The notes beneath the pieces are model-generated. The model was given only the letters and a program-made list of their open reading frames with translations. It was not told where the DNA came from and ran no database searches. Positions 24,286 through 33,159 of a DNA stretch of 38,332 bases are shown here, piece by piece; the first letter of the stretch is position 1, and each line of letters opens with the position of its first letter. The translations under genes and the position numbers were made by a program. This stretch comes from an uncultured Clostridia bacterium. GTDB taxonomy: Bacteria > Bacillota > Clostridia > Oscillospirales > Ruminococcaceae. The stretch spans positions 1-38,332 of the forward strand of contig CALXBD010000090.1 of NCBI GenBank assembly GCA_944386445.1, given 5' to 3'.

Positions 24286-24703
24286 TTGTCATCGCCTCCT
24301 CGGAAATTTTGGGGACAAGACCAAAGTCAGAACACGTTTCCGTGTGTTTCGCGTTCAGGCATCAAAAAACCGGAAAAACGGGAGTTTTTCCGGGATGTCT
24401 GAATCACACGCATACCACCGCCGCGCCTTTTGGTCAAAGCATACGGGTATGGGGCACTTGCAGCCTTAAAAGGCGCAGTTTGCCTGGAGTCACCCGCAGT
24501 TTTTTTTGCCGAAGCGCAAACGCCGGGGTATTTCCATCGTATTCATACTTTTGTCGCCCGGTTTAAAATCGGCCATACTCAGCGAAAATTCCCTGCTCTG
24601 GGAGCCTTTCCGGATTGGGTTCATCTGACAGGCGCCTGGTTTCCGGAGTTCGGAACCGGCAGCCACCTCTCGCGTCATCGCATATCTGTCGCAGTCACGC
24701 AAG
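24286..24703 (-). promoter_or_regulatory. Long structured 5' leader of the S10 operon
   Basis: This 415-nt transcribed leader contains no recognisable gene. Visible structure in transcript order: a hairpin near 24630-24656 (GGTTCCG with CGGAAACC); a 9-bp perfect stem joining 24468-24476 and 24423-24431 around an inner CATAC/GTATG hairpin (24440-24451); a terminator (24364-24393); an outer stem embracing it, 24394-24403 with 24354-24363 (nine of ten pairs) plus CACAC/GTGTG outside; and ACACG/CGTGT (24332-24345), which competes with the outer pairing. A 70-residue frame (24490-24702) starts with TTG at the presumed +1 and is not considered a gene. No T-box or known ribosomal leader was recognised. 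Confidence 0.6.
24364..24393 (-). terminator. Leader terminator (attenuator) upstream of rpsJ
   Basis: On the minus strand, CCGGAAAAAC pairs with GTTTTTCCGG over 10 perfect base pairs around a four-base loop, followed by six T. It lies 308 bases downstream of the likely start site and 79 bases before the rpsJ GTG. A transcript must read through it to reach the ribosomal genes. Confidence 0.8.
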
Positions 24704-24707
24704 GATT

Positions 24708-24736
24708 ATTATACAATGTCCGCAACCGTTTGGCAA
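24708..24736 (-). promoter_or_regulatory. Promoter of the S10 operon
   Basis: On the minus strand, TTGCCA (24736-24731) is followed by a 17-bp spacer and TATAAT (24713-24708). It begins 37 bases beyond the rlmA stop codon, and no clear terminator separates it from the aromatic operon. Confidence 0.82.
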
Positions 24737-24772
24737 GGGATTTCACAAATATTTTTATGAATTTTTTGTAAA

Positions 24773-25597
24773 TTATTTCCCTTTCCGATAAACCAAAATC
24801 TCAAAAGAAATTCCTGTCTCCAAATCCGGCAGCTCCGCCAGTTTCCGGTCGGTATCAACGCCGCTTTTATAATAGTAAGGCGTCATCGAAAACAGATTCC
24901 GGATATCCTGATTATCAGGCAGATAAATTCGGGCCTCCACCGGGATTTTTTCTTCAAAGAAAAATCCTTCCAGCTGGTAATCCTTTACCTCATTTTCATA
25001 GGGCTCGTCATAAAGCGCTTTTTTCAGCTCCCACAGGTGCAGCTGGCCGGGAATCCCCATCAGGAAGATCCCGCCGGGCTTCAGCACCCGCAGGTATTCC
25101 TCCCCACAGTAGGGGGAAAACAGGCTGACGACCCCATCGCAGCTTCCCGTCGGAATGGGCAGATGATATACACTGGCCACAGCACACCGGGCGTCCGGGC
25201 AGCGCCGGGCGCATTTTTCGGCTGCAAATTTGGAAATATCCACTGCCATGACATCCGGCTGGGTCGCCGCCAGGGCACCGGCCATAGCCTCCGTGTAATA
25301 GCCCTCTCCGCAGCCCGCGTCCAGTACCACAGGATGGCTTCTTTCTCCCAGATACCGAACGGCTGCTTCGGCCACCGCCTTTGCAAAAGGTGCGTAGTAT
25401 CCTTTTTCCAGGAAATCCCGCCGGGCATTGACCATCAGCTTGTTATCCCCGGGGACTTTGGCGTGCTTGGCATTGGGCGGGATCAGGTTTACATATCCGC
25501 TGCGGGCTTTATCAAAAGAATGTCCCTTCCCGCAGCGGAGGCTTCCTGCCTGCTCCATCAAAGGCTCGCCGCAAATGGGACAGAGAAACGGTACCAT
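24773..25597 (-). CDS. rlmA: 23S rRNA guanine-N1 methyltransferase, RlmA family
   Basis: The 274-residue protein starts M-V-P-F-L-C-P-I-C-G. The N-terminal zinc ribbon uses Cys6, Cys9, Cys22 and His26, and the SAM-binding motif VLDAGCGEGYYTE follows at about residue 90. This is the layout of RlmA(I)/RlmA(II) enzymes, which methylate G745 or G748 in helix 35 of 23S rRNA; the II type confers tylosin tolerance in its hosts. Which base is modified here cannot be told. The start at 25597 has AGGAGG six bases upstream; the longer frame to 25696 overlaps aroE and is rejected. The gap to aroE is one base, so it is the last gene of the aromatic operon. Confidence 0.82.
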   Translation of the reverse strand: MVPFLCPICGEPLMEQAGSLRCGKGHSFDKARSGYVNLIPPNAKHAKVPGDNKLMVNARRDFLEKGYYAPFAKAVAEAAVRYLGERSHPVVLDAGCGEGYYTEAMAGALAATQPDVMAVDISKFAAEKCARRCPDARCAVASVYHLPIPTGSCDGVVSLFSPYCGEEYLRVLKPGGIFLMGIPGQLHLWELKKALYDEPYENEVKDYQLEGFFFEEKIPVEARIYLPDNQDIRNLFSMTPYYYKSGVDTDRKLAELPDLETGISFEILVYRKGK

Positions 25598-25598
25598 A

Positions 25599-26441
25599 TC
25601 ACGCCTCCTGTCCCAACGCCTTTCGGACCTCTTTCCCCAGATAGGCGCCCATATCGTCCCGGTTAAAAGACTGCCCCAAAAAGATTTCAAACGCATAAAT
25701 TGCCTGGTAGATCAACATATTCAGCCCGTTGCAGCAGCGGATTCCTCTGGCGGCGCACTCCCGCAGCAGGGAGGTTTCCGCAGGCTTGTAGACGATATCA
25801 CATACAGCAGCGGAAGTTCCGTCCAAAAAGGAAAAATCGGAAAAATTGCTGTCGATGCCGCTCATTCCCAAAGGGGTGGCGTTGACAATGACGTCGCTGA
25901 CCTTCCCGCAGGAATCGGCAGACAACTGGTCAAAGGACCGGACCGTGACACGAGGATCTTCTGCCATAGCGGCGGCCTTGGCCGGAGTACGGCAGAAAAC
26001 CGTTACGGATTTAGCGCCCATTTCCAGGGCCTTTTTGCAGATAGAGAGCGCGGCGCCGCCGGCTCCCAGCAGGCTGACCCGCGCGCCCTGAAAGGAAACA
26101 CCCATCAGCCGCAGGGCGGATACGATGCCGTTGCCGTCGGTATTGAAGCCATAGAGTTTCCCGTCCGTTACCCGCACGGTATTCACGGCGCCGCAGCTGG
26201 CCGCATAGGTATCGATGCCGTCCAGGTACGGCAAGATGTGGCTCTTATGCGGAATGGTAATGTTAAACCCATCTAAATTTTCCCGGGCAAACTTTACAAA
26301 ATCTCCCAGTCCCTCCGTGTGGACCAAATGGGCGTCATAGCTACCCGGTACCCCCAGACGCTCCATCATTTTTCCCTGGATCAGCGGGGAGAGGGTATGG
26401 GCAATGGGGTCCCCAATGACGGCAAGACGCAAATCAGCCAT
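25599..26441 (-). CDS. aroE: Shikimate dehydrogenase
   Basis: The 280-residue enzyme reduces 3-dehydroshikimate to shikimate with NADPH. Substrate-binding HTLSPLIQ and the catalytic Lys in NITIPHKSHI are present. FNTDGNGIV, the nucleotide loop GAGGAALS and NATPLGM are also canonical. It overlaps aroK by eight bases and is followed by rlmA. Confidence 0.96.
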   Translation of the reverse strand: MADLRLAVIGDPIAHTLSPLIQGKMMERLGVPGSYDAHLVHTEGLGDFVKFARENLDGFNITIPHKSHILPYLDGIDTYAASCGAVNTVRVTDGKLYGFNTDGNGIVSALRLMGVSFQGARVSLLGAGGAALSICKKALEMGAKSVTVFCRTPAKAAAMAEDPRVTVRSFDQLSADSCGKVSDVIVNATPLGMSGIDSNFSDFSFLDGTSAAVCDIVYKPAETSLLRECAARGIRCCNGLNMLIYQAIYAFEIFLGQSFNRDDMGAYLGKEVRKALGQEA

Positions 26442-26940
26442 GAAAATCTCCTTTCAGTAACGCGATGATAGATTCAGCCACCTCAGCTGGAGCAGCGTGG
26501 CTGCCTGCGGTAACCTCCGCATATTGCCGGTAAAGGCCGATGCGCTGGTCGTAAAGGGCCTGCACACGGCTTAAATCCCCAGCGATCAGCGGCCGTCCAG
26601 ACAGATCCGACCCACAGATTTCCTCCACGGTCCGGTCCAGGAAAATCACCGTCCCGGAAGCGGACAAGGCTTCCATGTTCTCCTTTCGCAGGATGATCCC
26701 TCCGCCGGTAGCAATGACCTGTCCGGTTCGGGAAGCGGCTTCCCGGGCGCAGGCAGTCTCCCGCTTCCGGAAGCCTTCCTCCCCTTCCTCCGCAAAAATT
26801 TCCGGGATAGACCTTCCGGCTGCCTTTGCGATTTCCTCGTCCAGATCCGCAAAGACAAACCCCAGCCGCTCCGCCAGGATTTTCCCTACCGACGTCTTGC
26901 CGCTGCCCGGCATCCCGATCAGCACCAGATTTTCCTTCAT
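26434..26940 (-). CDS. aroK: Shikimate kinase
   Basis: The 168-residue enzyme phosphorylates shikimate at O3. The P-loop GMPGSGKTSVG, FADLDEEI (Mg and shikimate Asp residues), the Arg-containing EEGFRKRE and ATGGGIILR are all present. Its ATG lies one base beyond the pheA stop. Confidence 0.96.
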   Translation of the reverse strand: MKENLVLIGMPGSGKTSVGKILAERLGFVFADLDEEIAKAAGRSIPEIFAEEGEEGFRKRETACAREAASRTGQVIATGGGIILRKENMEALSASGTVIFLDRTVEEICGSDLSGRPLIAGDLSRVQALYDQRIGLYRQYAEVTAGSHAAPAEVAESIIALLKGDFHG

Positions 26941-26941
26941 A

Positions 26942-27781
26942 TCAGCCCTCCTCCGGACTTCCCGCCGGCCGGTGCCGGTAACAGCCCAGCACCTGCAGCG
27001 TCTGGGTATGCTCCTTCAGCTCCCGGAACAGCGGCTCCAGCTCTGTGTGAGGGCTGCCGGTAATGAAGTCGGCAAAAAAAAGATACTCCCAGTTCCGGTC
27101 GGCGATGGGCCGGGATTCGATTTTTACGAGATTCATTCCCCGCCGGCTCAAGACCTCCAAAACGCCGCATAAGCTCCCTACCACATGGGGCAGGGTAAAC
27201 GCCAAAGACACCTTGTCGCTGTCGGGCAGGTAATCCGGCTCCCGGGAAATGACGACAAACCGGGTGTAATTTTCATTCTTAAAGTTGACTCCTTCGGCTA
27301 ATACCTCCAGCCCATAGCATTGAGCTGCCCGCCGGCTGGCGATAGCCGCCAGATGAAAATCCGGACATTCCGACACCATTTTGGCGGCGGCAGCGGTGTT
27401 GTAAACCGGCCGGCAGACCCATTCCGGATGCTTTGCAAGAAACTCCGCCGACTGGGAAAGCCCCTGCTCATGGGAGATGACCTCCCGAATATCGGTCATT
27501 GTCCCTCCGGGACGGGCAAGCAGGCAATGGTTCACCCGGACGTATTGTTCCCCTACAATATAAAAGCCATACCGTCCCAGCAGGTCATATACCGCCGAAA
27601 TAGCCCCGGTGGAACTGTTTTCAATGGGCAGGACTGCCCGGTCCGCTTCCCGGTCCCGGAGCCGCTCAAAGGCGTTTCCGAAGGAGCTCGCCTGCAGAAG
27701 GGAAGCGTTTTCCCCAAAATAGCAAAGAGCGGCTTCCTCGGCGTAAGACCCCGGAACCCCGCAGTAAACAGCAGTTATCAT
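26942..27781 (-). CDS. pheA: Prephenate dehydratase
   Basis: The 279-residue enzyme converts prephenate to phenylpyruvate, the first committed step to phenylalanine. NYTRFVVI is the catalytic Thr-Arg-Phe motif and LPIENSSTGAI is part of the active site. The C-terminal ACT domain with GSLCGVLEVL and KIESRPI is the usual phenylalanine feedback site. There is no chorismate mutase domain. It overlaps the upstream acetyltransferase by four bases (ATGA). Confidence 0.96.
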   Translation of the reverse strand: MITAVYCGVPGSYAEEAALCYFGENASLLQASSFGNAFERLRDREADRAVLPIENSSTGAISAVYDLLGRYGFYIVGEQYVRVNHCLLARPGGTMTDIREVISHEQGLSQSAEFLAKHPEWVCRPVYNTAAAAKMVSECPDFHLAAIASRRAAQCYGLEVLAEGVNFKNENYTRFVVISREPDYLPDSDKVSLAFTLPHVVGSLCGVLEVLSRRGMNLVKIESRPIADRNWEYLFFADFITGSPHTELEPLFRELKEHTQTLQVLGCYRHRPAGSPEEG

Positions 27782-28332
27782 CTGTCCTCACCCTTTCCGG
27801 CCCAATATTCGTCGGCGGTCAGGGAGTAGCAGACCTCATCCAGGATCTCTCCGTTATACTGGCAGGTAGCCTTCCGGAAAACGCCCTCCCGCCGGAACCC
27901 GCACTTTTCGATGACCCGTCGGGAACGGCCGTTAAATGGGAAGTGGAAAACCGACACCATCTGAAGTTTCTCCTCCTCAAAGGCATAAGCAAGGGCTGCT
28001 TTTGCCGCCTCGGTCATCAGCCCTCTGCCCCAGTATTCCCGGGAAAGGACATAACCGAGCATTTTTACCCCAGGAACACCTGCACGCTTGCTGTCGCCAT
28101 GAAGTCCCAAAGAGCCGATCACTCTACCGTCCTCTTTGCTGACGATGGCCCACACCTCTGTGGAGCCCAGAAACATTTTATCCAGAATATCCCGGCTTTC
28201 CTCGATGCTCTCATGAGGCTTCCAGCCGGCGGCAGGGCCCACTTCCGGGTCCTTAGCGTAGTGGTAAAGGTCCTCGGCGTCCTCCTTTTGCCAATCCCTG
28301 AGAAGGAGCCGGGGCGTTTCCAGTGTCTTCAC
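27778..28332 (-). CDS. GNAT N-acetyltransferase, RimJ/RimL-like
   Basis: The 184-residue protein, from a GTG at 28332, begins M-K-T-L-E-T-P-R-L-L-L-R, the standard start of RimJ/RimL-type acetyltransferases. The acetyl-CoA motif is YWGRGLMTEAAKAAL, followed by VIEKCGFRREG. The frame could open at 28440, but AAGAAGGG lies six bases before the GTG and homologues start here. The substrate cannot be told; family members acetylate ribosomal protein N-termini or small amines. It is inserted between aroC and pheA, overlaps pheA by four bases, and follows a terminator-like hairpin. Confidence 0.83.
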   Translation of the reverse strand: MKTLETPRLLLRDWQKEDAEDLYHYAKDPEVGPAAGWKPHESIEESRDILDKMFLGSTEVWAIVSKEDGRVIGSLGLHGDSKRAGVPGVKMLGYVLSREYWGRGLMTEAAKAALAYAFEEEKLQMVSVFHFPFNGRSRRVIEKCGFRREGVFRKATCQYNGEILDEVCYSLTADEYWAGKGEDR

Positions 28333-28362
28333 ATGAAACCCTTCTTTCCTTACTATTTTAGC

Positions 28363-28378
28363 AAAAAGCCCGCCGGGC
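28363..28378 (-). terminator. Terminator-like hairpin after aroC, inside the operon
   Basis: On the minus strand, GCCC and GGGC form a short 4-bp stem followed by TTTTT. A second, perfect 8-bp stem (AGCGGCAG 28395-28402 with CTGCCGCT 28410-28417) lies just upstream, right after the aroC stop. Together they could reduce transcription into the GNAT-pheA-aroK-aroE part. Confidence 0.5.
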
Positions 28379-28423
28379 GCAGGCCGCAGCGGGAAGCGGC
28401 AGCCTAAAACTGCCGCTATAGAA

Positions 28424-29476
28424 TTACAGCAGCGCCTCACAGAGGGCCAGAGCGGCGGCGCTTTCCACTACCACCGAAGCCCGGGAGAGGATACAGGGGT
28501 CATGGCGGCCCTTGACCACCAGCTGGGCATCCTCCATGGTATCCAGGTTGACGGTTTTCTGAGGCTGGCCGATGGAGGAGGTAGGCTTGATGACTACCCG
28601 GAAGATCACCGGCATCCCGTTGGAAATCCCGCCCAAAATCCCGCCGTTCCGGTTAGTTTCGGTGACGACCTTGCCGTCTTTCATACGCATGGGGTCATTG
28701 GCCTGGCTGCCCCGCATGGAGGCCAGCGCAAAACCATCGCCGAACTCGATGCCCTTGACGGCAGGAACTGCAAATATATGTCTGGAAAGGATGCTCTCCA
28801 GGCTGGTAAGCCCCGGCTCGCCGATTCCGGCAGGCATCCCGGTGATGCCGCACTCGATGACACCTCCTACCGAATCCGCGTTCAAGCGGGCCAACTGGAT
28901 TTCCACCTTCATCTTCTCCCCGATTTCGGGCGAGAGGACCGAAAAGGATTCCGCCCACAAAGGCGCGAAGTCTTCTTCCGTGAGCTGAACCGGGTCAAAA
29001 AGCCGGTCTTTGACGTTGCCCACCTGGGCGATATGGGCGCCTACGGCAATATGGCGCTGCTTTAAAATCAGCTTGGCAACCGCTCCCGCATACACCAGCG
29101 GAGCCGTGAGCCTTCCGGAAAAATGACCGCCGCCTCGGGGGTCATTGCAGCCGTGATACCGGACGAACCCGGTGTAATCCCCGTGGGAGGGGCGGGCGAG
29201 TCCCTGGGTGGCAAAATAGTCCCCGGAACGGGTATTCTCATTGGCGATGACAGCACAGAGAGGGGTGCCGGTGGTTTTGCCCTGATAAACCCCGCTTAAG
29301 GGTTTGGGAATATCCGACTCGATGCGAGTGGTGGAAAGTCCACCTGTTTTGGCGCGGCGGCGTTCCATCTCCCGGGAAATAAAATCCTCATCCAAAAGGA
29401 TACCGGAGGGCAGGCCCTCCATCACCACGCCGACAGCCTCCCCATGGGACTCGCCGAAAATCTGGTAACTGAACAT
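28424..29476 (-). CDS. aroC: Chorismate synthase
   Basis: The 350-residue enzyme converts EPSP to chorismate with reduced FMN. GESHGEAVGVVMEGLP is the first signature, followed by RPSHGDYTGFVRYHG and RGGGHFSGRLTAPLV. It lies four bases after aroA. The protein is full length for the family. Confidence 0.97.
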   Translation of the reverse strand: MFSYQIFGESHGEAVGVVMEGLPSGILLDEDFISREMERRRAKTGGLSTTRIESDIPKPLSGVYQGKTTGTPLCAVIANENTRSGDYFATQGLARPSHGDYTGFVRYHGCNDPRGGGHFSGRLTAPLVYAGAVAKLILKQRHIAVGAHIAQVGNVKDRLFDPVQLTEEDFAPLWAESFSVLSPEIGEKMKVEIQLARLNADSVGGVIECGITGMPAGIGEPGLTSLESILSRHIFAVPAVKGIEFGDGFALASMRGSQANDPMRMKDGKVVTETNRNGGILGGISNGMPVIFRVVIKPTSSIGQPQKTVNLDTMEDAQLVVKGRHDPCILSRASVVVESAAALALCEALL

Positions 29477-29480
29477 TTTA

Positions 29481-30704
29481 TCACTCCTCTTCCCGGAGCA
29501 GGCCGCCCAGGGTTTGATAATCCTTCCAGAAATCCGGGTAGGACTTGGAAACGCACTGCGCGCCCTTCACCCGTACCGGCTTCCGGCAGATGGTTGCGGC
29601 GACGGCAGCCGCCATGGCAATCCGGTGATCGGAAAAGCTGTCCGCTTCCCCGCCCCAGAGGGTTTTGCAGCCGTCCACTTCCAGAAAATCCGGGCCGGTC
29701 CGGACAACGCCGCCCAGCTGCCGAACCAAAGCCGCCGTTGTTTCGATACGGTCGCTCTCCTTCATCCGCAGCCGTCCGGCATTGGCAAACCGAACCGTTC
29801 GGCCTTCTCTTCCGGCGGCACAGACCGCTAAAACCGGGATCAGATCCGGGATTTCTCCGGCATCCACTTCCAGATCTCCGGGCTGGGCCATGCGTTCCAG
29901 GATCGAAAGGACAGCCCGATCCCCTTGGATCGAATCGGGATTCATGCCCTGCACCTCCACCCGACTGCCCAGGAAATTGGCCCCCAGGAAAAATGCCGCC
30001 TGAGAGTAATCCCCTTCTACCGAACAGTCTGTCGCCTTAAATTTCTGTCCTCCCGGCAGCAGGAACCGGCGATACCCTTGATTTTCCGCTTTCACGCCAA
30101 AAGCCGCCATGGCGGAAAGGGTCATATCCACATACCCTTTGGACTGAAGCTCGTCGGTAATGACGATTTCCGTCGGCTGGGGCAAGAGGCTCAAGCCCAG
30201 CAGCAGCCCCGTCACAAACTGGGAGCTGATTTTCCCGCTTAAGGAGTACCTGCCGGCGGGAAGAGCGCCCTCCACTTCCAGAAAATCGCCTTTCAGCTCA
30301 TAGCGGATGCCTTTTTCCCGGAAAATCTCAAAATACGGTTCCAAAGGCCGCTCCATCAACCGCCCGTGCCCCCGGAAGCGTACTTTTTTCCCACCGCCGG
30401 CCGCCAGAGCCACCGGGATCAAGAACCGCAAGGTCGACCCGGATTCCCCACAATCGATTTCGGCATTCTCCTTCCAAATCCCGTCGCCGGAAACCGTTAC
30501 CTCCCGGCCGGAAACGGAAAACATCGCCCCCAGAACAGCTGCCCCCCGCAGGGTGGCCTCGATGTCCGCGGAAAGGCTGACATTTCCGATGCGGCTTTTT
30601 CCGTGGGTCAAAGCCGCGCAGAGCAGATACCGGTGTGCCATGCTTTTGGAGGACGGCACCGTGACCGCACCTGCCAGCTTTCCCGGCGTCAGAATCACAT
30701 CCAT
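29481..30704 (-). CDS. aroA: EPSP synthase (3-phosphoshikimate 1-carboxyvinyltransferase)
   Basis: The 407-residue enzyme joins PEP to shikimate-3-phosphate. SSKSMAHRYL, GESGSTLRFLIP, PDLIPVLAV, RMKESDRIE and FSDHRIAMA are the active-site motifs. The first motif has Met-Ala where many enzymes have other residues, and the family class was not resolved. The Met at 30704 is chosen because GGGGAG stands seven bases before it and it gives the canonical start MDVILTPGKL. The frame continues upstream to 31049, but that part is a shadow of aroB. Confidence 0.96.
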   Translation of the reverse strand: MDVILTPGKLAGAVTVPSSKSMAHRYLLCAALTHGKSRIGNVSLSADIEATLRGAAVLGAMFSVSGREVTVSGDGIWKENAEIDCGESGSTLRFLIPVALAAGGGKKVRFRGHGRLMERPLEPYFEIFREKGIRYELKGDFLEVEGALPAGRYSLSGKISSQFVTGLLLGLSLLPQPTEIVITDELQSKGYVDMTLSAMAAFGVKAENQGYRRFLLPGGQKFKATDCSVEGDYSQAAFFLGANFLGSRVEVQGMNPDSIQGDRAVLSILERMAQPGDLEVDAGEIPDLIPVLAVCAAGREGRTVRFANAGRLRMKESDRIETTAALVRQLGGVVRTGPDFLEVDGCKTLWGGEADSFSDHRIAMAAAVAATICRKPVRVKGAQCVSKSYPDFWKDYQTLGGLLREEE

Positions 30705-30708
30705 TTCA

Positions 30709-31791
30709 TTACTCCCCACAGGCCCAGCGGCTGAATTCGGCCTTGGGCATTTTATGCAGAAATCCCTTGCCGATTTCCTTGCAAAGGACGATGGTAATCT
30801 CTCCGCCGCTGCCTTTTTTGTCGTAGGCAAGAACCTGCCGCAGCGCTTGAGACGGAATCTCGCCGGCCTTTGTGGGCAGCCCGAACCGCTCAAGCAGTTC
30901 CGCCACCTGTTTTGCAGTCCCCGGACAGGTAAAGCCCTGCTCCTCGCCGATTTCCAGAATCCGCACCATTCCGCAGGAAACCGCTTCCCCATGCATATAG
31001 GTCTCATAGTTTCCCAGCTTTTCATAGGCATGTCCCAAAGTATGCCCAAGGTTTAAGAGCATCCGGTCGCCGGTATCCTGCTCATCCCGCTCCACGATGG
31101 CCCGTTTGGCGTCGCAGCAGGTGAAGATGATTTCCTCCATCCGCTCCATCAGCTCTTTTCGGCCAGCGCAGCCTGAAAGCAGGGCGAAAAGTTCCGCGTC
31201 CCCGAGGACGCCGTATTTGACCACCTCTGCCAGCCCGTCCCCGAACACCCGGTCCGGCAGGGTGCAGAGCGTATCCGGGTCAATGAGGACCGCCCGGGGC
31301 TGATAGAAGGCCCCGGCCAGGTTTTTTCCCTGTTTTAAGTCCACCGCCACCTTGCCGCCCACGGAGGAATCCACCTGGGCCAGCAGGGTGGTAGGAATCT
31401 GCACAAAAGGGATCCCTCTGAAAAGGGTGGCCGCTGCAAAGCCTGCCATATCCCCGGTCACGCCTCCGCCCAGAGCGACGATGAGGCCGCCCCGGGTCAT
31501 AGGGAAGGGTTCAGGAGACAGCATCCCGTCATAGAGGGAAACCAGTCCCTCCATATTCTTGCTTTTTTCCCCGGCCGGGAAGGTGACTGTCTTGACGCGG
31601 AATCCTGCCTCTTTCAGAGAACAGGCCACGGCTTCCCCATAAAGGGAGCCGACATTGGAATCGGTGACGATGCAGATATCCGTTCCGCTGTAAACCTTTC
31701 GAATCTCTTCCCCGCAGCGGCGAAGAATCCCTTTTTCAATGGAGATCTGATACCCGCGCCCGCCCGGCAGGGAAACCTGCAGTATGCTCAT
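30709..31791 (-). CDS. aroB: 3-Dehydroquinate synthase
   Basis: The 360-residue enzyme makes dehydroquinate from DAHP with NAD and zinc. GGGVTGDMAGFAA (NAD loop), PTTLLAQVDSSVGGKVAVD, NLGHTLGHAYE and MHGEAVSCGM (metal His residues) are present. It lies 16 bases after aroF and four bases before aroA. Confidence 0.97.
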   Translation of the reverse strand: MSILQVSLPGGRGYQISIEKGILRRCGEEIRKVYSGTDICIVTDSNVGSLYGEAVACSLKEAGFRVKTVTFPAGEKSKNMEGLVSLYDGMLSPEPFPMTRGGLIVALGGGVTGDMAGFAAATLFRGIPFVQIPTTLLAQVDSSVGGKVAVDLKQGKNLAGAFYQPRAVLIDPDTLCTLPDRVFGDGLAEVVKYGVLGDAELFALLSGCAGRKELMERMEEIIFTCCDAKRAIVERDEQDTGDRMLLNLGHTLGHAYEKLGNYETYMHGEAVSCGMVRILEIGEEQGFTCPGTAKQVAELLERFGLPTKAGEIPSQALRQVLAYDKKGSGGEITIVLCKEIGKGFLHKMPKAEFSRWACGE

Positions 31792-31807
31792 CGTATTCCT
31801 CCCGGGA

Positions 31808-32833
31808 TTACAGGGTTTTGCCGTTCAGCTCCACGAAGGGCCGGACAGTTTTTACCAACTGGTCGAAGGCTTCCGGGGTAATGGACTGTTTGCCGTCGCA
31901 GAGGGCCTTCTTAGGATTGTTGTGAACCTCGATAATCAGGCCGTCGGCTCCTACTGCCGCGGCAGCCTTGGCCATAGGCTCCACCATCCAGGCGATGCCG
32001 CAGGCATGAGACGGATCGATGATGACCGGCAGGTGGGACTGTTTTTTGAGCATGGGGACCGCAGACAGATCCAGGGTATTGCGGGTAGAAGTCTCGAAGG
32101 TCCGGATGCCGCGCTCGCAGAGGATGACGTTGGGGTTGCCGCTGGCCATGATGTACTCGGCGCTCATGAGCAGCTCTTCCAGGGTATTGGCCAGGCCCCG
32201 TTTGAGAAGGATGGGCTTGCGGCAGGTTCCCAGCTCCTTTAAAAGCTCGAAGTTCTGCATATTCCGGGCACCCACTTGGATGACGTCCACGTCCTCGAAC
32301 AGGGGCAGATGGGCGGGAGACATGATTTCGGTCACAATGGGAAGGCCGGTTTCCTTTTTGGCCACCAGCAGCAGCCGCAGGCCCTCATCATGAAGCCCCT
32401 GGAAGGCGTATGGAGAGGTACGGGGCTTGAAGGCGCCGCCGCGAAGGAGATTGGCGCCGCTGGCTTTTACCGCCTTGGCGATGGCTACGATCTGTTCCTC
32501 ACTTTCCACGGAGCAGGGGCCGGCAATGATCTGGAACTGTTTTCCGCCCACAAGCACCAGGCCCTCTGCAGCGGGGACCTCCACCACGGTATCCTCCGGA
32601 TGGAACTTCCGGTTGGCCAGCTTGTATGGCTCCTGGACGCGCTTTACGGATTCCACGATGTCGTTGGCGGCGATATCGTCCTCGTTAAGGCGGGTGGTAT
32701 CGCCCACCAGTCCGATGACGTTGCTTTGTTCGCCTACAATGGTATGGGCGTGAATATTTCCGACTGCTTCCAGGTCGGCAACCAATTTTTTGACTTCCTC
32801 GGCGTTGGTGTTTTTCTTCAATACAATAATCAT
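31808..32833 (-). CDS. aroF: DAHP synthase with N-terminal regulatory domain
   Basis: The 341-residue enzyme condenses PEP and erythrose-4-phosphate, the entry to the pathway. The first 75 or so residues (MIIVLKKNTNAEEVKKL...) form the ferredoxin-like ACT-type domain of AroA-beta synthases, the family in which Phe/Tyr feedback acts. The barrel has GPCSVESEEQ, GAFKPRTSPYAFQG and VIIDPSHACG. The start at 32833 has AAGGAG nine bases upstream; the frame to 32890 is rejected. It is preceded by a leader peptide and terminator, so expression is probably attenuated. Confidence 0.96.
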   Translation of the reverse strand: MIIVLKKNTNAEEVKKLVADLEAVGNIHAHTIVGEQSNVIGLVGDTTRLNEDDIAANDIVESVKRVQEPYKLANRKFHPEDTVVEVPAAEGLVLVGGKQFQIIAGPCSVESEEQIVAIAKAVKASGANLLRGGAFKPRTSPYAFQGLHDEGLRLLLVAKKETGLPIVTEIMSPAHLPLFEDVDVIQVGARNMQNFELLKELGTCRKPILLKRGLANTLEELLMSAEYIMASGNPNVILCERGIRTFETSTRNTLDLSAVPMLKKQSHLPVIIDPSHACGIAWMVEPMAKAAAAVGADGLIIEVHNNPKKALCDGKQSITPEAFDQLVKTVRPFVELNGKTL

Positions 32834-32925
32834 GATCACAATCTCCTTTAAATGGCGTATTATCCGGTTTTTTGATCTCCAAACCGGCACAGCGCTTTAC
32901 CGGCCCGGAAACCAAAAGCTTGACA

Positions 32926-32965
32926 AAACAAAAAGTCCGCATCTTCGTTTCCAAAGATGCGGACT
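32926..32965 (-). terminator. Attenuator terminator upstream of aroF
   Basis: On the minus strand, AGTCCGCATCTT (32965-32954) pairs perfectly with AAGATGCGGACT (32945-32934) over 12 bp with an eight-base loop. TTTTTGTTTTG follows. It lies 21 bases after the leader peptide stop and about 93 bases before the aroF ATG. Confidence 0.93.
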
Positions 32966-32986
32966 GTCTTTCCTTAAATCAGAAAA

Positions 32987-33100
32987 TCACAGCAAACACA
33001 AACTGGCCAACGAAAGATGAGTATGGGAAATCGGACCGGCGCCATAAAAATAGCTCCAGCCAAAAAAGCCCATAAATCGATTGGCACGCAGTGCTGTCAT
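32987..33100 (-). CDS. Aromatic-rich attenuator leader peptide of the aro operon
   Basis: The 37-codon ORF reads M-T-A-L-R-A-N-R-F-M-G-F-F-G-W-S-Y-F-Y-G and then 17 further residues. Residues 9-19 hold four Phe, one Trp and two Tyr, coded at 33044-33076. The chosen ATG has AAGGA eight bases upstream; an in-frame ATG at 33109 would add M-K-T, but the AAGG then abuts the start codon. It lies between a consensus promoter (start site near 33124) and a strong terminator, and its stop is about 150 bases before aroF. Position, composition and the absence of any protein-domain character make a leader peptide the best reading. It would stall ribosomes when any of the three aromatic amino acids is scarce. 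Confidence 0.82.
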   Translation of the reverse strand: MTALRANRFMGFFGWSYFYGAGPISHTHLSLASLCLL

Positions 33101-33130
33101 GGTTTTCATCCTTTCTCCGAATTTGGTTCT

Positions 33131-33159
33131 ATTTTAATACACCTTCCGGCAATTGTCAA
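33131..33159 (-). promoter_or_regulatory. Consensus sigma-A promoter of the aro operon
   Basis: On the minus strand, a perfect TTGACA (33159-33154) is followed by a 17-bp spacer and TAAAAT (33136-33131). It is the strongest promoter seen in the window. Upstream it is flanked by AT-rich sequence with TTTTG/CAAAA (33203-33214), which might be an operator, with low confidence. Confidence 0.9.

Follow-up and report, generated by a model that had tools for sequence, protein, structure and literature searches.

A putative ribosome-mediated attenuator with an aromatic-rich leader peptide upstream of aroF in Clostridia

Among bacterial switches that act on transcription termination, the enterobacterial trp, pheA and his attenuators use a leader peptide rich in the amino acid of their own pathway and leader RNA segments that pair as 1:2, 2:3 or 3:4 alternatives. 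T-box riboswitches also control termination, by reading tRNA charging. Leader-peptide attenuation by His codons has been described in Firmicutes, including C. difficile and other Peptostreptococcaceae (PMC2965389, PMC9413887), and in the sections of a 2010 survey drawn on here the only leader-peptide systems beyond Proteobacteria and Actinobacteria are its bacilli His leaders and an atypical ermC (PMC2965389). For aroF itself, the uORFC-13-1 motif is described as an upstream ORF with one or more Phe codons beside a terminator, lying exclusively upstream of aroF and proposed to regulate termination; its section reports 24 representatives, from Acholeplasma and environmental sequences only (PMC8632094).

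Here we analysed a 38,332-nt stretch of DNA (the window) from an uncultured Clostridia bacterium, in which an aromatic-rich leader ORF precedes aroF. We put at about 0.88 the probability that this locus controls the aro/pheA operon by ribosome-mediated transcription attenuation, a reading built by sequence comparison on a computed ORF, promoter match, Shine-Dalgarno motif and terminator, on recurrence, on 1:2 and 2:3 complementarity in two leader sets and on a Phe/Tyr specialisation. The enterobacterial trp, pheA and his systems share with it an amino-acid-rich leader, 1:2, 2:3 and 3:4 alternatives and a terminator before the first structural gene. In contrast to them, the aroF leader fronts the common pathway from DAHP synthase on, mixes Phe and Tyr codons with one Trp codon, has a segment 2 situated mostly within the ORF, past the aromatic run, with the terminator loop and 5' arm as its predicted pairing partner, and belongs to hosts of another phylum. 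Compared by description, it resembles uORFC-13-1 in placing a Phe-codon upstream ORF beside a terminator before aroF; the section on that motif asks for a minimum of one Phe residue and mentions neither Tyr nor Trp codons, nor an antiterminator, nor Clostridia (PMC8632094). The Firmicutes His leaders, as far as their sources were drawn on, work by the same leader-peptide attenuation, but their genes are of hisS type or his operons, not aroF (PMC2965389, PMC9413887). The clostridial aroF leader group was not found in Rfam or in the open literature searched, with most subscription papers outside that search. Ribosome-mediated attenuation itself is already known, and the novel features are the wide distribution and the Phe/Tyr split. 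If the reading is true, a leader-peptide switch at the first aromatic step in many clostridia changes the view of their aromatic supply.

The leader locus contains the following elements:

33131..33159, minus strand: sigma-70-type promoter, TTGACA-17-TAAAAT, 11/12 consensus matches
33110..33118, minus strand: Shine-Dalgarno of the leader ORF, GGAGAAAGG, by direct reading of the sequence
32987..33100, minus strand: leader peptide ORF of 37 codons, with homologues in 7/7 genomes of the genus
33044..33076, minus strand: aromatic control codons at residues 9-19, counted on the 37-aa peptide, by codon list; aromatic class conserved in relatives
33003..33087, minus strand: predicted 1:2 hairpin of early and aromatic codons with post-aromatic codons, for example GCCAA/UUGGC, from the no-ribosome fold
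32951..33006, minus strand: predicted 2:3 antiterminator, CCAG/UUGG, UGUG/CGCA, GCUGU/ACAGU and UUUUCU/AGGAAA, from the stalled-state fold
32934..32965, minus strand: 3:4 intrinsic terminator of 14 pairs with loop GAAA and a U-rich tail, with covariation in a 9-sequence alignment

A preliminary description of this DNA had proposed the layout of ribosome-mediated attenuation before aroF, which the comparative evidence below supports well. The promoter that it named is confirmed as near-consensus, and relatives L003-L008, L012 and L014 show, by eye, TTGACA and a TA-rich -10 about 17 nt on at the same place. The codon list likewise returns the 37-residue peptide as described, with aromatic residues F9, F12, F13, W15, Y17, F18 and Y19. 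A second in-frame ATG at 33109 would give a 40-aa form; we prefer the start at 33100 because the ORFs of relatives, 36-38 aa long, match the length of the 37-aa form. The stop codon ends at 32987 and the terminator stem begins 21 nt on, the distance given before. The terminator and its U-rich tail are also present, but the stem, first called a perfect 12-bp one, is slightly longer, with one U-G among its 14 pairs. None of 200 dinucleotide shuffles of the leader RNA from 33131 to 32915 folds as well as the native sequence (z = -3.62), and the terminator accounts for much of this. A scan of the window against Rfam at the gathering score gave no T-box or other family, and the leader peptide matched no family in Pfam or NCBIfam.

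The genes downstream are as follows:

31808..32833, minus strand: aroF, type Ib DAHP synthase with FXD domain (NF006421, 488.8 bits; DAHP_synth_1, DAHP_snth_FXD)
30709..31791, minus strand: aroB, 3-dehydroquinate synthase (TIGR01357, 355.7 bits, cut-off 305)
29481..30671, minus strand: aroA, EPSP synthase (TIGR01356, 310.1 bits, over ORF residues 127-515); the start is approximate, the mechanical ORF extending to 31049
28424..29476, minus strand: aroC, chorismate synthase (NF003793, 383.5 bits; TIGR00033)
27778..28440, minus strand: GNAT-type acetyltransferase between aroC and pheA, with weak matches only, all below cut-off
26942..27781, minus strand: pheA, prephenate dehydratase (NF008865, 212.4 bits, just under the cut-off of 219)
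26434..26940, minus strand: aroK, shikimate kinase (NF010553, 121.5 bits, under the cut-off of 204)
25599..26441, minus strand: aroE, shikimate dehydrogenase (TIGR00507, 209.6 bits, cut-off 200.2)
24773..25696, minus strand: 23S rRNA guanine-N1 methyltransferase-like gene (best match PRK11088, below cut-off)

From aroF to aroE the genes overlap or are closely spaced and probably form one transcript. The GNAT-type acetyltransferase gene sits within this aro operon, and the methyltransferase-like gene follows closely behind aroE. A pattern scan of 24600-32930 found 18 terminator-like sites on both strands where shuffles give 10.9 (sd 3.3), and 6 promoter-like sites where they give 2.9 (sd 1.5); terminator-like stems on the coding strand have at most 8 pairs, and a 7-pair stem at 28385-28367, inside the GNAT gene, is directly followed by TTTTGC.

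We infer translation of the ORF, ribosome stalling, read-through and the identity of the signal, and the switch would work as follows. RNA polymerase would start just 5' of the leader ORF with a ribosome trailing it. A shortage of charged tRNA-Phe or tRNA-Tyr would stall this ribosome in the aromatic run, and the stall would free segment 2, the codons past the run, from its 1:2 pairing with the early and aromatic codons. Segment 2 could then pair with segment 3, made up of the terminator 5' arm and loop, so that the 3:4 terminator would not form and aroF would be transcribed. Under ample supply, a ribosome at the stop codon would cover segment 2 and the terminator would form; with no translation, the 1:2 hairpin would likewise leave the terminator free.

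A search with a peptide model found the leader in all seven genomes of the genus, which is Candidatus Merdivicinus by four named contigs and is placed by NCBI in Clostridia, Oscillospiraceae. At every leader locus of the genus, and at those of two further genera in the family (L007, L008), the leader is followed by aroF. By direct similarity the peptide has a narrow reach, covering 7 of 297 family genomes. A search of the order by peptide matched 8 of 394 genomes: the window, L017 and L019, which were used, and L018 and L020-L023, which were set aside by eye as having no evident aroF leader. Within the genus there is no excess of third-position change of the kind that would mark coding (20, 17 and 16 of 37 columns vary by codon position).

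We then defined a leader by composition and place, as an ORF with an ATG start, a Shine-Dalgarno-like motif, 18-60 codons and at least 5 F, W or Y among 12 consecutive residues, no more than 360 nt from aroF. Three samples of aroF loci were searched, all leaning to aroF genes most like that of the window: a family sample of 30 loci from a search and 60 further places down its list, which leans to window-like aroF; a class sample of 29 search loci and 40 places hand-picked to spread families; and a phylum sample of 28 loci and 40 hand-picked distant places, whose L263 is the same place as class locus L191. Such an ORF precedes aroF at 67 of the 90 loci in the family sample and at 47 of the 69 in the class sample, compared with 0 and 2 on the reverse strand and 0-2 and 0-3 in five dinucleotide-shuffle sets; when at least 7 aromatics are asked for, the counts are 48 and 45, with 0 and 1 on the reverse strand and 0 in shuffles. 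The remaining 23 family and 22 class aroF genes have no such ORF, and in the phylum sample 16 of 68 loci carry a leader (15 among the 28 best aroF matches and one, marginal, among the 40 distant places). These comparisons indicate that the aromatic leader ORF is not due to chance and that the leader marks part of the aroF tree. The check set earlier, that relatives should carry a conserved short ORF before aroF whose aromatic codons do not drift freely, is thus passed. As to the accompanying remark that T-box or TRAP control is more usual in such a genome, the leader is not exceptional: most aroF genes in the family and class samples have one, and T-boxes precede other genes of the window's genome.

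The terminator recurs with the ORF. A strong one (-10 kcal/mol or lower, within 80 nt of the stop) follows 66 of the 68 leaders called in the family and 46 of the 48 called in the class, counts for which GTG and TTG starts were also allowed. Across 131 distinct leaders, a set that includes doubtful ones such as L136 and L237 without a strong terminator, aromatic density is frame-specific, the best 12-residue count being 7.6 versus 2.82 and 3.42 in the other frames, and both Phe codons (TTT, TTC) and both Tyr codons (TAT, TAC) are in use. When 20 class and 20 family loci with a leader were scanned against Rfam, a single tRNA was the only match.

To compare RNA pairing across leaders, each was divided into segment A (start to the last aromatic of the run), B (the rest of the ORF), S (the spacer), C (the terminator 5' arm) and D (the 3' arm), and duplex energies of cognate segments were compared with those of all non-cognate pairs by permutation. 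Of 78 family and seed leaders, 71 entered the tests (62 of these belong to the family sample), as did 46 of the 48 class leaders, and the two sets share no locus; identical peptides and leaders whose terminator was missing, misplaced or far were dropped. The 1:2 pairing stands out most. In the 71 leaders A:B has a mean energy of -29.98 kcal and a cognate excess of -9.99 (z = -20.1), versus -0.94 and -0.79 with A or B reversed, and in the 46 class leaders the excess is -9.07 (z = -15.9; reversed, -1.69). For the 2:3 pairing, B against C plus the loop has an excess of -1.71 kcal in the 71 leaders (z = -5.6), carried by the second half of B (-1.87, z = -6.1), whereas the first half is worse than random (+0.68); in the class leaders the excess is -3.83 (z = -10.8; reversed, -0.96, p = 0.002).

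The terminator loop matters for this pairing. Without it, B against C shows no cognate excess in the 71 family-set leaders and -1.17 in the 46 class leaders, and the whole ORF against the 5' arm gives a mean z of -0.01, with 4 of 72 leaders below -2. B against the loop plus D reaches -1.38 in the 71 leaders, and B against D alone -0.54 kcal in the family (p = 0.016) and -0.15 in the class (p = 0.29). A candidate antiterminator that would match CATCTTTCGTTG of the ORF to the 3' arm of the terminator was dropped, the 3' arm alone being weak and the 5' arm plus loop strong. In family and class leaders, A, S and the 5'UTR show no clear cognate excess against C or D plus loop, and B shows none against reversed arms in the 71 leaders. 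Since the reversed controls are not all null, composition explains part of the pairing excess, but not its bulk.

Folds of the leader RNA point the same way. With a ribosome placed at the last aromatic codon, the RNA that it leaves free (the stalled state) folds more stably than upstream-shuffled controls (mean z -1.39, SE 0.15, in the 71; -1.86, SE 0.23, in the 46). In 62 of the 71 leaders and 44 of the 46, more of the 5' arm plus loop is paired with upstream sequence than after shuffling. The nucleotides used in 1:2 and 2:3 overlap only slightly more than expected (0.61 versus 0.55; 0.66 versus 0.52). The pairing would also account for codons that recur near peptide ends, several of which are complementary to the terminator arm or loop, as with UAAUGAG and CUCAUUA in several class leaders (L174, L180, L148 and others) and UUUGCUG and CAGCAAA-type loops in other leaders. 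Across the family and class leader sets, these results support 1:2 and 2:3 pairings as probable alternatives to the terminator.

For the window and its genus, the fold model supports an antiterminator only weakly, and this is the weakest link of the attenuator reading. The partial competing hairpin noted earlier at 32964-32992 is confirmed as the inner half of a longer predicted hairpin, which spans the leader stop and ends in the terminator 5' arm and loop. This antiterminator, of which only the partial hairpin had been seen at first, can be drawn at 32951-33006, but shuffled sequences do as well (z = -0.37; z = -0.58, with 54 of 200 shuffles as good) and it shows no covariation in close relatives. 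In a set of eight close relatives that counts the window, clearly negative values are confined to L007 (-2.15) and L014 (-1.7); relatives L003 and L006 would pair at the same place in another register, GAUAC/GUAUC. On the 9-sequence alignment 70.6% of antiterminator cells are paired, with no pair changed on both sides and no advantage over shuffles, and fixed-column antiterminator covariation among these close sequences is not supported. Of the covarying stems that the preliminary description had proposed to look for, only the terminator was found to covary: 97.6% of its cells are paired, and in 5 of its 14 pairs both sides have changed.

Duplicated aroF genes bear on what the codons read. Second copies were taken at 40 places picked from lists (L200-L239), and by criterion the aromatic leader is absent from 31 of these 40. 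Of 48 genomes with at least two sampled aroF upstream regions, 28 carry a single distinct leader, 10 lack one altogether and the other 10 carry two; in all ten two-leader genomes one leader is Phe-rich and the other Tyr-rich. Expressed as the Tyr fraction (Y of F + Y), one member of each pair lies at or below 0.29 and the other at or above 0.56, and the mean difference is 0.669 versus 0.427 (sd 0.092) under random pairing (p = 0.006). A strong terminator accompanies 18 of these 20 leaders, L087 and L225 being without. A Tyr fraction of at least 0.75 occurs in 1 of 29 leaders from single-aroF family genomes and in 11 of 46 from double-aroF genomes, a group that includes the same two-leader pairs. 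We take the Phe/Tyr split of duplicates as the strongest sign that codon identity matters. Somewhat better than even, in our estimate, are the odds that much of the class Clostridia shares an aroF attenuator family of old origin and that, on duplication of DAHP synthase, a mixed leader split into a Phe-reading and a Tyr-reading one. E. coli has DAHP synthase isozymes specific to end products, and the split leaders would, if so, be an RNA-level counterpart. The Phe-rich and Tyr-rich duplicates are a natural experiment on specificity change in a codon-reading sensor.

Phe and Tyr are likely the signals, which fits an operon that includes pheA. The cores of the 131 distinct leaders hold 661 F, 483 Y and 45 W. 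The preliminary description had seen one peptide carrying codons for all three aromatic amino acids; the F, W and Y codons are there, but this need not mean three-way sensing, as F and Y dominate. A sensor that reads Trp as well is possible but doubtful, and we would bet clearly against it. W15 is present in the window leader and the six other leaders of the genus, and 43 of the 131 leaders combine F, Y and W in their cores; against this stand one Trp codon to six Phe/Tyr codons, and a Trp column in which the 59 leaders that fit a loose pattern show W 15 times, L 15 times and F 12 times. Trp sensing is doubtful because the trpE N-terminal domain is undetected in six of the seven genus genomes, all of which keep the Trp codon; it was found in one of seven, and in one of the four at least 90% complete, with controls at 14 of 14. 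The window's genome is 86% complete and the domain was not detected there. In addition, its trpB lies behind a T-box.

Other explanations would keep the leader and change what it does. In TnaC the nascent peptide itself stalls the ribosome, and a leader of that kind could sense a free aromatic amino acid or another ligand. Residues outside the aromatic run do recur, as in the ...FSAGYFFCKK-like ends, which might be expected of nascent-peptide stalling; several recurring post-aromatic codons are, however, explained at the RNA level, for example by the UAAUGAG/CUCAUUA match above, peptide ends vary widely, and the Phe-rich and Tyr-rich duplicates fit codon sensing, so that we give nascent-peptide stalling only a slim chance. 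Slimmer by a shade is the chance that the ORF acts mainly on the translation or stability of aroF mRNA, by coupling or reinitiation, with the hairpin secondary. That upstream ORFs can affect downstream translation is general knowledge and the sole point in its favour, nothing locus-specific adding to it, whereas in the window aroF starts about 150 nt past the leader stop, and nearly every family and class leader is followed by a strong terminator. A chance aromatic ORF between a promoter and an ordinary hairpin would be consistent with the statistically unremarkable antiterminator of the window taken alone, but conservation, shuffles and cognate tests contradict it, and we regard it as next to impossible. 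Codon-reading attenuation therefore remains our preferred account of the locus.

T-boxes were looked for around the same genes. T-box RF00230 is absent from the aroF leader locus in the window by Rfam scan and has 11 matches elsewhere in that genome, 5 of them over the cut-off. On other contigs (L114, L116, L117), T-boxes precede pheS, an iorA-like gene and trpB; alongside the undetected trpE domain, these hint at indole or indolepyruvate salvage for Trp. At leaderless family and seed aroF loci there was no T-box in the 20 scanned of 22, L030 and L054 lying outside the scan. Among the 20 scanned of the 40 distant phylum aroF loci, three have T-boxes before aroF, at 400-655 of L284 (plus strand), 321-589 of L285 (minus strand) and 356-604 of L288 (plus strand), each on the strand of its aroF gene.
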